Of a DNA stretch of 64,000 bases, positions 24,466 through 41,118 are shown piece after piece; within the stretch, counting starts at the first letter, position 1, and each line of letters begins with the position of its first letter. The stretch spans positions 1 through 64,000 of the forward strand of contig CALEUG010000005.1 of NCBI GenBank assembly GCA_937920515.1, read 5' to 3'. The stretch comes from an uncultured bacterium. GTDB taxonomy: Bacteria; Acidobacteriota; Aminicenantia; Aminicenantales; Saccharicenantaceae. The position numbers and the translations under genes are program-made. The notes under the pieces were generated by a model, which was given only the letters and a program-made list of their open reading frames with translations, was not told the DNA's origin and did not search any database.

Positions 24466-24511
24466 GAAAGGAAGCAAAGACCATAAATCTGTTTTGCTTT
24501 CCCTGGCTCAG

Positions 24512-24791
24512 AGAAAAAGAAGAGAGGGGTGCCGCCGTGCACCCCTCTGTTTAATTGAAGGAAGGGGGAATGGAAAGAAGGGCAAAGAAGGGCAAAAAGG
24601 AGGCATTTATAAATTTATGGGTGCGCTCATCGCCATGCCTGCAAATAAAGGGGGAGGGAGAGATTGGCTTTCTGTTCAGCCCGTCAAACCTCAATATCTC
24701 CCTCCCCGGACCAGCAAAACTATCTATGTATAAAAACTGCCTATCACCTGTTTTCGTTTCCACTCTTCTTCCAGCCATTTTTCGTTACCCA
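24512..24791 (-). ncRNA. Candidate sigma-54-dependent structured small RNA
   Basis: The interval runs from the predicted start of the sigma-54 promoter at 24802-24817 to the T-run of the terminator near 24512, about 280 bases. It contains an 11-bp perfect stem, GGGGAGGGAGA (minus strand 24707-24697) with TCTCCCTCCCC (24661-24651). The 35-base loop holds a nested 4-bp GGCT/AGCC hairpin. Downstream is a pyrimidine-rich single-stranded tract with two tandem TTTGCCCTTC copies (24577-24596) and CCTCC (24599-24603), which could pair with Shine-Dalgarno sequences. The longest minus-strand frame (24778-24551, 75 codons) has an atypical composition and no known family. That makes a non-coding RNA the better reading, though a dual-function RNA is possible. 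Everything here is inference from sequence. Confidence 0.5.
24523..24552. terminator. Strong intrinsic terminator, possibly bidirectional
   Basis: AGAGGGGTGC (24523-24532) and GCACCCCTCT (24539-24548) form a perfect 10-bp stem with a 6-base loop. On the minus strand the stem is followed by CTTCTTTTTCTC, a good T-tract. On the plus strand GTTTAATT follows, which is weaker. It can end the NTPase transcript from the left and the candidate small RNA from the right. Confidence 0.7.
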
Positions 24792-24801
24792 CCTGTTTGA
24801 G

Positions 24802-24817
24802 AGCAAGATTTGTGCCA
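24802..24817 (-). promoter_or_regulatory. Near-perfect sigma-54 (RpoN) promoter
   Basis: Minus strand TGGCACAAATCTTGCT. The -24 GG and -12 GC are 12 bases apart, and TGGCAC and TTGCT match the sigma-54 consensus (TGGCACG-N4-TTGCW) at every key position. Predicted start is near 24791. No protein gene of known family lies downstream on this strand before the terminator at 24523-24548. Confidence 0.75.
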
Positions 24818-24858
24818 GAATTCATAGCCCAGAATTCCCCTTAAAAAGAGGCGGGTTG

Positions 24859-24907
24859 TTTGTAAAATTACAAAAAAAAAGTTTAAGGGGCGTAAAAATA
24901 CTTTACG
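24859..24907. promoter_or_regulatory. Two dyads upstream of the sigma-54 promoter, possible activator sites
   Basis: TTTGTAA-N2-TTACAAA (24859-24874) and CGTAAA-N5-TTTACG (24891-24907) are perfect inverted repeats 42-90 bases upstream of the -24 element at 24817. Position and symmetry fit enhancer sites for an NtrC-type activator such as the one encoded at 26582-27940. The rest of 24466-24977 holds no gene I can support other than the candidate RNA. Confidence 0.4.
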
Positions 24908-26048: not shown

Positions 26049-26420
26049 TCAGGAGGTGGCATCAGACAGCAGTCTGTCGATAGTTTCTGTCAGCAACTTT
26101 AAGTCCAGGGGTTTGATGAACAGGCGATCAACCTTCAGTTTTTCCAGGTCTTCCGGTCTGACCTGGTCGGCACAGGCAGAAATAAGAATGATGCGGCCCC
26201 GATAACCAGATTGCCTGAAATCGACGAGCATCTGGAGACCGTTTTTCTGGGGAAGCCGCAAGTCGGCTATAATCATGTCCACCGGAGCTTTTTCAAACCG
26301 GGCCAGCGCCTCCCGGGCATCGTGGGCCAGGTAAACGTTATATTTATCAGAAAGCAACAGGAAAAAAGTTTTCCTGATGGATTCATCATCATCCACAATC
26401 ACAATTCTTTTTTCCAGCAT
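26049..26420 (-). CDS. Single-domain response regulator (CheY-like)
   Basis: 123 residues, receiver domain only. The acidic pocket is VDDDES (residues 9-14), the phospho-acceptor is Asp53 in IIADLRLP, the switch residue is Ser81 and the conserved Lys is Lys103 in FIKPLD. There is no output domain. It is encoded 161 bases downstream of the NtrC-type regulator but separated from it by a terminator and given its own sigma-54 promoter. It may therefore be a target of that regulator and act in feedback or phosphotransfer with the kinase at 27937. The leader is short (about 13 bases) with AGG before the ATG. Confidence 0.9.
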   Translation of the reverse strand: MLEKRIVIVDDDESIRKTFFLLLSDKYNVYLAHDAREALARFEKAPVDMIIADLRLPQKNGLQMLVDFRQSGYRGRIILISACADQVRPEDLEKLKVDRLFIKPLDLKLLTETIDRLLSDATS

Positions 26421-26581: not shown

Positions 26582-27940
26582 TTATTCGGAAGTTTCCGCT
26601 TTCAGGTCGTAATCCTTGATTTTTTTATCCAGGGTTGGCCGGCTTATTTCCAGTATCTGGCAGGCCCGGGTCTTGCTGCCCCGGGTGGCTTCCAGCACGT
26701 ACTGGATGTACCTTTTTTCAATTTCCCACAACGGCACCAGTTCCCTGGGCATCTGAAAACTTCCCTGGGCCTGGGTAGCCGGTTCAAAAGGCAGGTGTTC
26801 TTTCAGAATGACATCGCCCTTGGCCAGGATAACGGCCCTGGTCAGGGCATTCTCCAGTTCCCGGACATTACCTTTCCAGGGCTGTTTGACCAGGTATTCC
26901 ATGACTTCAGGTGGAACTTTCCTCACGTTTTTTTTCAGTTCCCTGTTTATTTTTTCCAGCAGGTAAGCCACCAGCTCGGGAATATCCTCGCGCCTGTCCC
27001 GAAGGGGCGGCAGGGTTATCTCCACCACCTTCAACCGGTAATACAGGTCCTCCCGGAATTTGCCCTGGTTTACCAGCTCTTTAAGGTTCTGGTTGGTAGC
27101 GGCAATTATTCTGGCTTCGGTCTTCAATATCTTCTCGCCGCCGACCTTCATGAAATCCCTGGTCTCTATGACCCGGAGGAGCTTGGACTGCAGGTTGGGA
27201 GAAATGTCGCCGATTTCATCCAGGAAAAGCGTTCCCTTGCCGGCAATCTCAAACTTGCCGCGGGTCTCGCTGACGGCATCGGTAAAAGCCCCCTTGACAT
27301 GACCGAAAAGCTCGGATTCCAGCAGGGTATCGGAGATGGCCGAACAGTTAATGACGATAAAGGGCTCATCCCGGAATGGGCTGTTGTAATGGATGGCCTT
27401 GGCCACCAGCTCCTTGCCCGTCCCGCTCTCGCCCTGGATCAGGACGTTGGTTCTGGTATTGGCCACCGAGCCTATCATTTTGAATACTTCACGCATCTGG
27501 GGCGAACGGCCGATGATGTTGTCAATCTGGTATTCCTTCTGCTTTTCTTCGATGAGATAGCTAACCTTTTCTTCCAGCGCTTTAAGCTGAAAGGCCTTGT
27601 CGATAGTGAGGTCCAGCTCCAGGTAATCCAGCGGTTTCACCAGGTATTCGAAGGCACCGGCCTTGATGGCCTCCACCGTGGTTTTCATATCATCAAAAGC
27701 GGTCATCACCACCACGGCCGCATTCTTGCCGGTCTGCCTGATTTGCCTGAGCACCTCCAGGCCGTTGACGTCAGGCAGCTTGACATCCAGCAGGGTCAGG
27801 TCCGGTTGAAATTCTTTGAAAAGCTTTAGCCCTTCCTCCCCGGTCTCTGCCTGTTTCAGCTCGAAACCTTTTTTTTTGAGATGGGTGGCGATGGTCCGGC
27901 TGACCAGGGAATCATCCTCTATTACCAGAATTCGCGTCAT
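26582..27940 (-). CDS. NtrC-family sigma-54-dependent response regulator
   Basis: 452 residues. Receiver domain (1-120) with Asp52 in TLLDVKLP and Lys102; AAA+ activator domain (about 142-370) with Walker A GESGTGKE (170-177) and Walker B LFLDEIGD (Asp241-Glu242); Fis-type helix-turn-helix at about 415-447. The sigma-54 contact loop reads GAFTDA (217-222), not the classical GAFTGA. This variant occurs in other NtrC relatives. The start overlaps the kinase stop by 4 bases (ATGA). Together with the upstream kinase and solute-binding protein it should sense an extracytoplasmic signal and switch on sigma-54 promoters; two lie downstream in this window. Confidence 0.95.
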   Translation of the reverse strand: MTRILVIEDDSLVSRTIATHLKKKGFELKQAETGEEGLKLFKEFQPDLTLLDVKLPDVNGLEVLRQIRQTGKNAAVVVMTAFDDMKTTVEAIKAGAFEYLVKPLDYLELDLTIDKAFQLKALEEKVSYLIEEKQKEYQIDNIIGRSPQMREVFKMIGSVANTRTNVLIQGESGTGKELVAKAIHYNSPFRDEPFIVINCSAISDTLLESELFGHVKGAFTDAVSETRGKFEIAGKGTLFLDEIGDISPNLQSKLLRVIETRDFMKVGGEKILKTEARIIAATNQNLKELVNQGKFREDLYYRLKVVEITLPPLRDRREDIPELVAYLLEKINRELKKNVRKVPPEVMEYLVKQPWKGNVRELENALTRAVILAKGDVILKEHLPFEPATQAQGSFQMPRELVPLWEIEKRYIQYVLEATRGSKTRACQILEISRPTLDKKIKDYDLKAETSE

Positions 27941-29421
27941 GACTGAGCCTCCTGCCTGTTTTCAGGACAGGGCAGAGTTATCAGAAAGCAGCTGCCCCGT
28001 CCCTCCTTTTTATCCACCCGGATGGTACCCCCGTGCTGGTCCAGAAGGCGGCGGGCATTGGCCAGCCCCAGGCCGGCCCCGGAACTCTTGGTGGTAAAGA
28101 ATGGTTCAAAGATATTTTCCCAGTCCTTTTCCGGAATGCCGCAGCCGTCGTCGCTGACCCGGACCTCAAAACAGGGACGATCCTCTTCCCGTTTCATCCG
28201 GAGAGAAATTTCTATCCTTCCCCCGGTGTCCACCGCCTCGTAGGCATTACGAAGCACATTCAGGAAAACCTGGCGCAGCCGGTCGGCATCGACGTAGGCC
28301 GGTGGCAAATCCCGCTGATAATGCCTTTCCACCCTGACATTTTTTTCTTTAAGTGAAGGTTGCAGCACTTTCAAAGATTCCTCCAGGATTTCAGCCAGCG
28401 AAAAATAATCCTTCTGCAGGCTGGAGGCCCGGGTATAGCTCAGCAGGTCCTTGATGAACTTCTCGATCTGCTCGATTCCGGCCTGGGCAATGGCCAGATG
28501 CTCTCTCTCCAGCTCATTCAGGGTAGAAATTTCTGCCAGCTTCTGGATGTTCAACTTAACCGAGGTGAGCGGATTGCGGATTTCGTGGGCAATGGTGGCC
28601 GAAAGCCTTCCGATGGAGGCCAGTTTCTCGGCCTGGAGCAGGCGCCGGCTGGCCTCTTCCATCTGCTCCCGGGCCCGCAGCAATTCCTCGGCCATGTGGT
28701 TGAAACTGCGGGTCAGGTCTCCCACTTCGTCGCTGGAGATAACTGGAATCCGGTAACTGAAATCTCCCCGGGACAGGCGACGCGTCCCCTCCACCAGGTT
28801 CTTGATGGGCCTGGTAATCCTCCGGGCCAGCAAATTGGCCCCGAGCACCGTCAGCAGAAAGGCGACCAGACCCAAGCCCAGCATCGCCAGCCTGGTTCTC
28901 TGTATTCTCCGGAAAACGTCCTCCAGCTTCAACCCGATTTTGACCGAACCCCATTTTTTCTCCGAACCGGGGATGAAAACCGGCACCTCAACTTCCATCA
29001 CTTCCTGAAGGCTCCGCCCCTGCCCCAGCCTGATGGTACTGTAAAAAACGTCGCCAGCGGACACCTCACCGGCGCAGCTGGTCTGGTTTATTACCTCGGC
29101 GTTGTCGGCCACACTCGGGCTGACCACCAACGGCTTGCTATCGGCATCGTAAAAAATGACGTAAGCCAGGTCTTCCCTGATCAACCCCGAAATGTTCTCA
29201 TCTATGGATTCCAGGTCTCCCAGCACCAGGCTCCTGACGTTCATCTCGGAAATGTACCTGACCATTACCAGGCCGCGCTCCCTCTTCTCCTGGTAGATGG
29301 CTTTAACTTCCCTGCTCTGGATTACGTAAAGTACCCCGAACATCAAGAGCAGGATGATAACCGAAGTCCAGAAAACCAGCTGGACGTAAATGGAAATTCG
29401 TGGCCTGGGAATCCTCGTCAT
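27937..29421 (-). CDS. Membrane sensor histidine kinase
   Basis: 494 residues. TM1 at about 12-34, an extracytoplasmic sensor of about 140 residues (probably a Cache-like fold), TM2 at about 178-197, HAMP (about 198-250), HisKA with the phospho-acceptor His279 in TIAHEIRNPLTS, and HATPase_c with NVLRNAYEAV, DDGCGIP and GAGLGLANARR. It overlaps the solute-binding-protein gene upstream and the NtrC-type regulator downstream by 4 bases each, so all three are coupled. This is the NtrB-like partner of the 26582 regulator. Confidence 0.94.
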   Translation of the reverse strand: MTRIPRPRISIYVQLVFWTSVIILLLMFGVLYVIQSREVKAIYQEKRERGLVMVRYISEMNVRSLVLGDLESIDENISGLIREDLAYVIFYDADSKPLVVSPSVADNAEVINQTSCAGEVSAGDVFYSTIRLGQGRSLQEVMEVEVPVFIPGSEKKWGSVKIGLKLEDVFRRIQRTRLAMLGLGLVAFLLTVLGANLLARRITRPIKNLVEGTRRLSRGDFSYRIPVISSDEVGDLTRSFNHMAEELLRAREQMEEASRRLLQAEKLASIGRLSATIAHEIRNPLTSVKLNIQKLAEISTLNELEREHLAIAQAGIEQIEKFIKDLLSYTRASSLQKDYFSLAEILEESLKVLQPSLKEKNVRVERHYQRDLPPAYVDADRLRQVFLNVLRNAYEAVDTGGRIEISLRMKREEDRPCFEVRVSDDGCGIPEKDWENIFEPFFTTKSSGAGLGLANARRLLDQHGGTIRVDKKEGRGSCFLITLPCPENRQEAQS

Positions 29422-31034
29422 CGGTCAATCCAGACATCCCGGAGGTTCAGGGAAAGCAGCCCGCCGGGCCGGGCCCTCAGGTTTTTAAGGTAAGGCTGGT
29501 AGGCCAGTCTCTGTTTATGATAAAAAAGAGGAAGGGCCGGGCTATCGGCCTGAAGAATCTTCTCAACTTCCCTGAAGACATTCACCCGGCGCTCGAAACT
29601 CAGGCCGTTCTTCTGGAGCTCCAGCAGTTCATCAACCTTGTGGTTCCTGTAATGAAACAGGTCCCGGTTGGGATAGCCGGACGAATGAAACAGCGGCCAC
29701 AGAATAAATTCCGGGTCGGGCAGGTCGGGACTCCATTCCAGGAAAAAGATATAGGGCATGTTGTCCCGGGCCAGTTCTTCGGCAGAATAACCTGACTTGA
29801 GCTCCAGCTTGAGGCCGGCTGCTTTCAACTCATCTCTCAAAAACCCGTAGATATTCGGGATGAGTTCTTTGTTGGAGACCTCAAAATAGGTGTTGACCAC
29901 CAGGGGTCTATCCACCCGGCCGAGCCCGGCTTCCTCCAGGACTTTCAGCACCTGGCTCAGGTTTGGCTCTCGCCCGATGCTTTCTGGCATGAAACCCGGA
30001 AGAAAGGGCGGAAGGTAGGTATCCATCGCCTGGCAAAAATTGGCCGTGGTCGAAGCCAGCCCGGCCAGCTGCCTTTTTTCCAGAAAGGCCTGCAGGGCCC
30101 GGCGGACATCAGGCCGGTCAAAGGGCGGAAGATGGCAGCTGAAGAAAAGGTAATTCAGCTGGAGCAGGTTGCCTTCCAGAATCTGGTATTTATCCCTTGA
30201 TATCCTGAAGGTCAGGTAGGGAATGACCTGGACCTCGTTCTGGAAAAAATCGTCCAGCTGGAAAAAGGGACTGACTTCTACCGCTTCCAGGAACGGCTTC
30301 CTGGTAAAATAATTTTCATTCCTGGCCAGCCTGATGCCGATAATATTCAGGCGCCTGTCCCGCAGCCAGTAATCGAACTTAAAGGGACCGGCTCCAACCG
30401 GCTTATCAAAAAACTTCTTTTTCTGGGATTGAACCGGACCGGCTGGTAGAATCCCGGCGAAGCCGGCAGCCAGGAAGTAAAAGTTGGTAATCCCGGGCTG
30501 CTTCCAGTAAATTTCCAGGACTTTATCATCCACCACTCTTAGCCCGCTGACCTCGGAAGCCTTTCCCTTCCAGAATTCCTCCCCGCCTTCTATCCTGCTG
30601 GCCAGCTCGTAAAAAACGGGCCGGCTCTTCAGCTGAAATAGCCTTTCGAGCGAAAACTTGACGTCGGCCGCGGAAACTGCCTGGCCATTATGAAAAAAGG
30701 CCCGCTTTCTCAGGTAGAAGGTGACCTTTTTGCCGTTTTCCGAAACGGACCAGTAGTCGGCCAGACCGGGCATAATGTTCAGGTTCTGGTCCAGCCGTAC
30801 CAGGCCTTCGTAAAGATTTTCCACCACCAGGGCATAACCGTTTCCGGCCGGGTCCAGATCGGTATTCAGGCTTGAACCGAACGGCCTGACCCTGAGTTCT
30901 CCTCCGGGCTTGGGCCTGGGAGTTTCTTCCTGGACAGAAGCAACCAGGGCCAGGCCCAGGATCAGTATTCCTGTCAGGACAATAAAGATGGCCGGGCCTG
31001 TCCGCTCCCGGGGAGTCCTCACAGAACATTCCAT
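29418..31034 (-). CDS. ABC-type family-5 solute-binding protein, probably a sensory partner
   Basis: 538 residues with an N-terminal hydrophobic segment (about 15-34) and no lipobox Cys, so it is either secreted or membrane-tethered. The body is an SBP_bac_5 (DppA/OppA-like) domain: GGELRVRPFG, NLYEGLVRLDQ, ADYWSVSENGKKVTFYLRK, FFHNGQAVSAADVKFS and ENYFTRKPFLEAV. There are no Dpp/Opp permease or ATPase genes nearby. It is the first gene of an overlapping operon with a histidine kinase and an NtrC-type regulator. I infer that it feeds ligand information, perhaps peptides, to the kinase and does not serve transport. Confidence 0.88.
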   Translation of the reverse strand: MECSVRTPRERTGPAIFIVLTGILILGLALVASVQEETPRPKPGGELRVRPFGSSLNTDLDPAGNGYALVVENLYEGLVRLDQNLNIMPGLADYWSVSENGKKVTFYLRKRAFFHNGQAVSAADVKFSLERLFQLKSRPVFYELASRIEGGEEFWKGKASEVSGLRVVDDKVLEIYWKQPGITNFYFLAAGFAGILPAGPVQSQKKKFFDKPVGAGPFKFDYWLRDRRLNIIGIRLARNENYFTRKPFLEAVEVSPFFQLDDFFQNEVQVIPYLTFRISRDKYQILEGNLLQLNYLFFSCHLPPFDRPDVRRALQAFLEKRQLAGLASTTANFCQAMDTYLPPFLPGFMPESIGREPNLSQVLKVLEEAGLGRVDRPLVVNTYFEVSNKELIPNIYGFLRDELKAAGLKLELKSGYSAEELARDNMPYIFFLEWSPDLPDPEFILWPLFHSSGYPNRDLFHYRNHKVDELLELQKNGLSFERRVNVFREVEKILQADSPALPLFYHKQRLAYQPYLKNLRARPGGLLSLNLRDVWIDR

Positions 31035-40924: not shown

Positions 40925-41118
40925 AAGAACCTCCAGGATTCAGATAAGCTTTTATTTTACCTTATCCCTCGACCCCCGCCAAGCAGAGCAGGTCTCGATT
41001 CTACTGTCAGTTGCCCCCGCCCCGCCATAAAAATAGCCCGCCACTTCACCCCAAAAGGCTATGGCAGAGACGAGCCCGGGCCCTTATCATCAGGCTGAAA
41101 CCTGAAAAGGAGGTTTAT

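Follow-up and report, generated by a model that had tools for sequence, protein, structure and literature searches.

Small RNAs that are fired by sigma-54 together with a response regulator include the Qrr RNAs (LuxO) and GlmY (GlrR), and a separate set, exemplified by RsaE/RoxS and FsrA, uses C-rich stretches to target G-rich sites close to the start of translation. In sX13, C-rich loops act on G-rich motifs near translation starts independently of Hfq (PMC3771888). The CrcZ RNA of Pseudomonas forms its own unit downstream of CbrAB, with an NtrC-type activator and sigma-54 dependence, in a synteny that is conserved within a family (PMC8871633). Other RNAs combine regulation with coding. AzuCR of E. 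coli encodes a small protein and also represses mRNAs by base pairing, while SgrS has a conserved pairing part and, in a subset of species, an ORF located upstream of it (PMC8672173). Both kinds of RNA, those driven by sigma-54 beside two-component genes and those with a dual function, are thus already known.

The element described here is encoded on the minus strand of a 64-kb window, the whole stretch of DNA that was analysed, and is conserved in every one of the 18 Candidatus Saccharicenans genomes whose sequence covers the site. Like CrcZ, it is predicted to form an sRNA unit that lies downstream of two-component genes, one of them for an NtrC-type activator; unlike CrcZ, which is non-coding and titrates Hfq/Crc, it joins a C/U tract to a conserved ORF. 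It is a different RNA from Qrr and GlmY, and neither the window nor seven related loci gave an Rfam match at gathering score. For RsaE, the Rfam score here (17.2 bits, E 2.4) is sub-threshold and at chance level; sX13, RsaE/RoxS and FsrA are described as non-coding and have other promoters. SgrS/SgrT and VcdRP are similar in having a short ORF and a distal base-pairing segment, with the SgrS ORF confined to a subset of species, as is proposed here. They differ in activator and sigma factor, and their ORF lies upstream of the pairing segment, whereas the present frame runs through the candidate pairing tract. AzuCR, from an unrelated phylum, is repressed by CRP rather than driven by sigma-54. 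What is new is the combination, the organism group and, above all, the frame through a frozen tract; a search of the literature on Aminicenantes with sigma-54 found no regulatory RNA of this group. We consider it probable that the element is a dual-function transcript under two-component control, which both exerts RNA-based regulation and yields a small protein from the frame through the tract. At the level of sequence, comparison establishes the promoter, candidate enhancer, terminator, frozen core and conserved frame, together with an enhancer–promoter pair that is found across the order and C/U-rich RNAs elsewhere.

At the genus loci, the element follows genes for a solute-binding protein, a histidine kinase, an NtrC-type activator and a receiver protein, the last two being upstream of it in every case; a phosphatase gene and a convergent NTPase gene are variably present. 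In the window, all four are on the minus strand. A family-5 solute-binding protein (29418–31034) is the first gene of the kinase operon and is followed by the partner histidine kinase (27937–29421), with a strong match in 56 of 60 relatives. Next come the proposed regulator, a sigma-54 activator with receiver, AAA+ and Fis-type HTH domains (26582–27940), and a single-domain response regulator (26049–26420; Pfam Response_reg). The element has a sigma-54 promoter, TGGCACAAATCTTGCT (24817–24802), which the first-pass annotation had reported; a promoter of this form is present at the site in 17 of 17 relatives. Its −24/−12 form, TGGCA[CT]N5TTGC[AT] with the invariant GG and GC of a sigma-54 transcription unit, matches at all 18 genus loci with promoter sequence. 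That such a promoter is more than chance, as had been argued, is borne out by a pattern search of the home genome, in which TGGCAYN5TTGC occurs 20 times and the reversed pattern three times. Several further sigma-54 promoters in the home genome (L021–L039) precede genes for exported or envelope proteins, among them beta-barrel and carboxypeptidase-regulatory-like proteins and a pilin-like T2SS protein.

Missed by the first-pass annotation is a conserved palindrome, CGTAAAGTATTTTTACG (24907–24891, minus strand), an inverted repeat whose centre lies ~80 bp upstream of the −24 element. The form YGTAAA-N5-TTTAC is centred 68–82 bp upstream of the promoter in 18 of 18 genus loci with promoter sequence, and this conservation of position and sequence makes it a candidate enhancer for an AAA+ activator. 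When enhancer and promoter were combined into one pattern (GTAAAN5TTTAC-N48-78-TGGCN7TTGC), nearly every well-assembled genus genome contained it twice, and the reversed control gave no occurrence. The two sites belong to this element and to an orthologous gene for a secreted protein of ~350 aa. Only one site was seen in four genomes (G001, G004, G007 and G016), three of which are less complete assemblies. A second palindrome, at C12:6473, was discarded since it falls inside a coding sequence. In the home genome, the secreted protein, the second regulon member, is encoded at L020:136–1188 (G000:C2, minus strand); a strong match to it is present in 79 of the order's 94 genomes, and it has no Pfam, NCBIfam or significant PDB relative.

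Across the order, the enhancer–promoter pair precedes the solute-binding/kinase operon, the secreted-protein gene and a few other genes, and it often occurs around the operon that includes the neighbouring sigma-54 response regulator (26582–27940 in the window). The family-5 solute-binding gene is preceded by an enhancer and sigma-54 site in several other genera. A weaker copy of the pair precedes the receiver-domain gene in the window, where an enhancer-like site with one mismatch, GTAAAAAAAATTAAC (26553–26539, minus strand), is followed by a sigma-54 site, TGGCACAAAACCTGCT (26459–26444, minus strand), with equivalents in sister genera. Because the pair and the activator co-occur, we infer that the product of 26582–27940 would bind the palindrome at 24907–24891. 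In family f6, genes that resemble those for ECF sigma factors by eye lie behind the same enhancer and sigma-54 promoter at L248 (G060:C99) and L260 (G083:C32).

The predicted transcript spans 24791–24512 on the minus strand, ~280 nt, with its start placed from promoter spacing and its end from the terminator. Read along that strand, the order is palindrome, promoter, ATG, 11-bp stem, a near-invariant GAGCGCACC, C/U tract, stop codon and terminator. The terminator is a hairpin with a 10-bp GC-rich stem, AGAGGGGUGC-ACGGCG-GCACCCCUCU (24548–24523), followed by a T-rich tract to 24512; it had been noted before, and on the transcribed strand it has the makeup of an intrinsic terminator. Its stem is invariant save for the outermost pair in two sequences, while the loop differs between clades. 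The earlier proposal of a sigma-54-dependent regulated RNA of this length is well supported by sequence, with promoter, enhancer, invariant core and terminator all conserved, and the tandem TTTGCCCTTC copies that had been pointed out are likewise present. A short ORF followed by a terminator is also what an attenuator or leader of a downstream gene would look like. This reading is extremely improbable: the next gene is convergent in the window and at most genus loci, so that there is no same-strand gene for the terminator to control directly, although a same-strand gene does follow in a few loci.

By DNA search, the region is found in 17 of the 18 other genus genomes and in none of 41 genomes outside the genus. 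The sole exception in the genus is G016, whose contig stops within the gene preceding the element; loss there has nothing in its favour, because the contig stops short of the site. The most constrained part is a C/U-rich core of 52 nt, GCCUCCUUUUUGCCCUUCUUUGCCCUUCUUUCCAUUCCCCCUUCCUUCAAUU (24604–24553, minus strand). As aligned, this tract, GCCTCCTTTTTGCCCTTCTTTGCCCTTCTTTCCATTCCCCCTTCCTTCAATT, is letter-identical in every genus locus that covers it. In a collection that spans 84,980 species, an exact 22-mer from it occurs in only 17 records; all belong to this group and are titled Candidatus Saccharicenans, Candidatus Aminicenantes or Acidobacteriota. Weak protein matches in family f6 were discarded, as two loci inspected had no related element, and weak covariance-model matches outside the locus were discarded as chance after inspection of seven loci, among them one in G005 where the match falls at the 3′ end of the other regulon gene.

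The first-pass annotation had described an RNA with no protein gene. For the genus this no longer holds as far as the frame is concerned: a small ORF of 75 codons, with its ATG at 24778 and its end at 24551 on the minus strand, stays open in each of the 17 genus sequences spanning both ATG and tract, with lengths of 37–80 aa in relatives and a stop codon directly 3′ of the C/U tract. That the frame might be an accident of low stop density in the pyrimidine-rich sequence of a purely non-coding RNA is very unlikely, even though a pyrimidine tract is stop-free in any frame. Counted only over the part before the tract, from the ATG onward, the 950 codons of this frame include no stop, while the two other frames have 88 and 70. 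Every alignment gap within it is a multiple of three, and shuffled full-length versions stay open in only ~0.4–3% of cases. In G005, a large deletion removes the whole 5′ stem and still leaves a 37-codon frame in register. Such conservation suggests an ORF kept by selection, as expected of a dual-function RNA. What speaks for a non-coding RNA is that the N-terminal residues are weakly constrained and that most position-equivalent RNAs in other genera have no such frame. Protein-level conservation of 24778–24551, which the annotation had named as evidence against its own proposal, thus refutes the claim of no protein gene at least as regards the frame, which every covering relative keeps, although the N-terminal residues vary freely.

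The two parts of the ORF evolve in distinct ways. The N-terminal part is fast-evolving (pS 0.42, pN 0.36; pN/pS ~0.86), whereas the C-terminal part, which is the core, has no synonymous change at ~14 synonymous sites per pair and encodes a nearly invariant 19-residue peptide. The small protein has no Pfam or NCBIfam match and is modelled as disordered except for a C-terminal helix of moderate confidence (mean pLDDT 54). One could regard the locus as solely a small protein gene under sigma-54, its nucleotides frozen by selection on the 19-residue C-terminal peptide and its codons, and both the strict maintenance of the frame through indels and the nearly invariant peptide, modelled as a helix, fit this account. 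It is nonetheless quite unlikely, since all synonymous sites of the core are unchanged where synonymous change is common elsewhere in the ORF, the terminator stem is nearly invariant although it lies outside the ORF, and other genera have a C/U tract and terminator, most without a comparable frame. Given a core free of synonymous substitutions in an ORF whose remaining part has a pS of 0.42, the tract nucleotides seem to be kept for more than the peptide. With a frame that stays open through indels and synonymous sites that are frozen in the tract, both the RNA and the frame seem to be selected.

The RNA as a whole folds slightly better than shuffled sequences (z −1.5). Its 11-bp stem, with the 5′ arm GGGGAGGGAGA at 24707–24697 and the 3′ arm TCTCCCTCCCC at 24661–24651, was found as the annotation had it; five of its pairs are changed on both sides, a number that one of 500 shuffles reaches, and the stem is dispensable in G005. 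The near-invariant GAGCGCACC (24628–24620, minus strand) is predicted to base-pair with the UGCCUC that opens the core, a pairing that lacks covariation support because it hardly varies. The C/U tract, which the annotation had described as an unpaired CCTCC-rich stretch, is predicted to be so only if folding is restricted to the 3′ domain (mean unpaired probability ~0.87); folding of the whole transcript pairs most of the tract with the purine-rich 5′ half (0.33–0.53). Folding models thus suggest that translation or 5′ processing may expose the tract. A more specific proposal is that, as the pairing tract is also the end of the conserved frame, translation would compete with regulatory pairing for this 52-nt stretch, which ribosomes or the purine-rich 5′ half would mask. 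We hold this to be rather doubtful; if true, the RNA would report the state of translation besides the two-component signal.

In other genera, the region downstream of the activator was searched for the same enhancer with a sigma-54 site, the −12 element of which is often ATGC. This gave short RNAs that combine a promoter of similar type with a C/U-rich tract and a terminator, most of them without a substantial frame; in several genomes of the order, none was seen up to 5 kb from the activator. In G019, of the same family and another genus, the unit is ~100 nt, and its enhancer and promoter are followed by ...CCCTCCTTCTTTTTTCC and then by a hairpin, GGAGGGGCGC, with its T run. In genus g4, ten genomes have a tract, GATACCCTTCCATAACCCTCCTTC, that is near-identical between them or varies slightly, ahead of a similar hairpin; most of the ten have a recognisable promoter that matches, though in G024 it is only weak. 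Six genomes of family f2 have CTCTCTTCCTTTC and a hairpin of the GGGAGGCG type or similar, and two of family f6 have longer RNAs that hold several such C/U tracts. Aligned over the 3′ domain, G019 and G022 beat all of 300 shuffles, while the alignment with the G049-type RNA does not rise above shuffles. The alignments thus support common descent of the RNAs within the family; beyond the family, the case for it is built on position, promoter type and composition. In genus g4, a tiny frame ending in PDTLP has its stop inside the C/U tract (L297, L298, L300, L301, L303, L289 and L293); in G025, CCTTAA replaces CCATAA with the stop retained. Genus g13 (L290 and L306; G051 and G044) has a corresponding RNA with a frame of 72–73 codons that also runs through a C/U tract.

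The case offers a two-component system with a very small predicted regulon, an RNA partner whose position is constant and a series that leads from short RNAs to a coding RNA. These features make it possible to test how a regulatory RNA acquires a protein frame, and how one stretch of sequence serves regulation and coding together. In the dual-function reading that we prefer, the adjoining system of solute-binding protein, histidine kinase and NtrC-type activator would act through the palindrome at 24907–24891 to fire the sigma-54 promoter, from which transcription would run ~280 nt to the terminator. The older and main function would be RNA-based, with the C/U tract and terminator forming a trans-acting regulator whose tract most likely pairs with, and blocks, purine-rich (G/A-rich) ribosome-binding sites. 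The Saccharicenans RNA would have gained or kept a translated frame of 37–80 codons through the tract, and so may also make a small protein with a hydrophobic C-terminal helix. This reading supposes that the RNA is present in cells, that its frame is translated and that it pairs with mRNAs, with access to the tract controlled by translation or 5′ folding.

The C/U tract may target mRNAs by pairing of the anti-Shine-Dalgarno type. A target proposed earlier, at 41105–41113, is generic: the window has three copies of AAAAGGAGG, one of them on the strand complementary to the element. A blastn-type search of 19 genus genomes with the complement of the core returned, besides the element, short or weak matches only, and among the same 19 genomes no site of extended complementarity to the core recurs across species. 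For the ribosome sites of 41 genes in the window, the computed duplex energies of the core match those of shuffled cores, and the observed mean is reached by 60 of 100 shuffles. The home genome was searched by patterns and in selected stretches. With the mRNA of the co-regulated secreted protein, the core gives −14.8 to −24.5 kcal/mol, not above the window background. This lack of special complementarity to ribosome sites is in keeping with the main rival for the RNA part, in which the RNA titrates a pyrimidine-binding protein, as CrcZ titrates Hfq/Crc, without mRNA pairing and with the frame still translated. The tract contains repeated GCCCUUCUUU units, and position and control resemble those of crcZ adjoining cbrAB (PMC8871633). 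We nevertheless regard titration as unlikely. The entire 52-nt tract is frozen, beyond its repeat units, and the tract differs between genera yet retains CCUUCC or CCUCC motifs, as expected for pairing with ribosome sites. In favour of titration, 38 of the 40 genomes searched encode an Hfq-like protein; the one in the home genome (G000:C4:302527–302685) has a borderline score.
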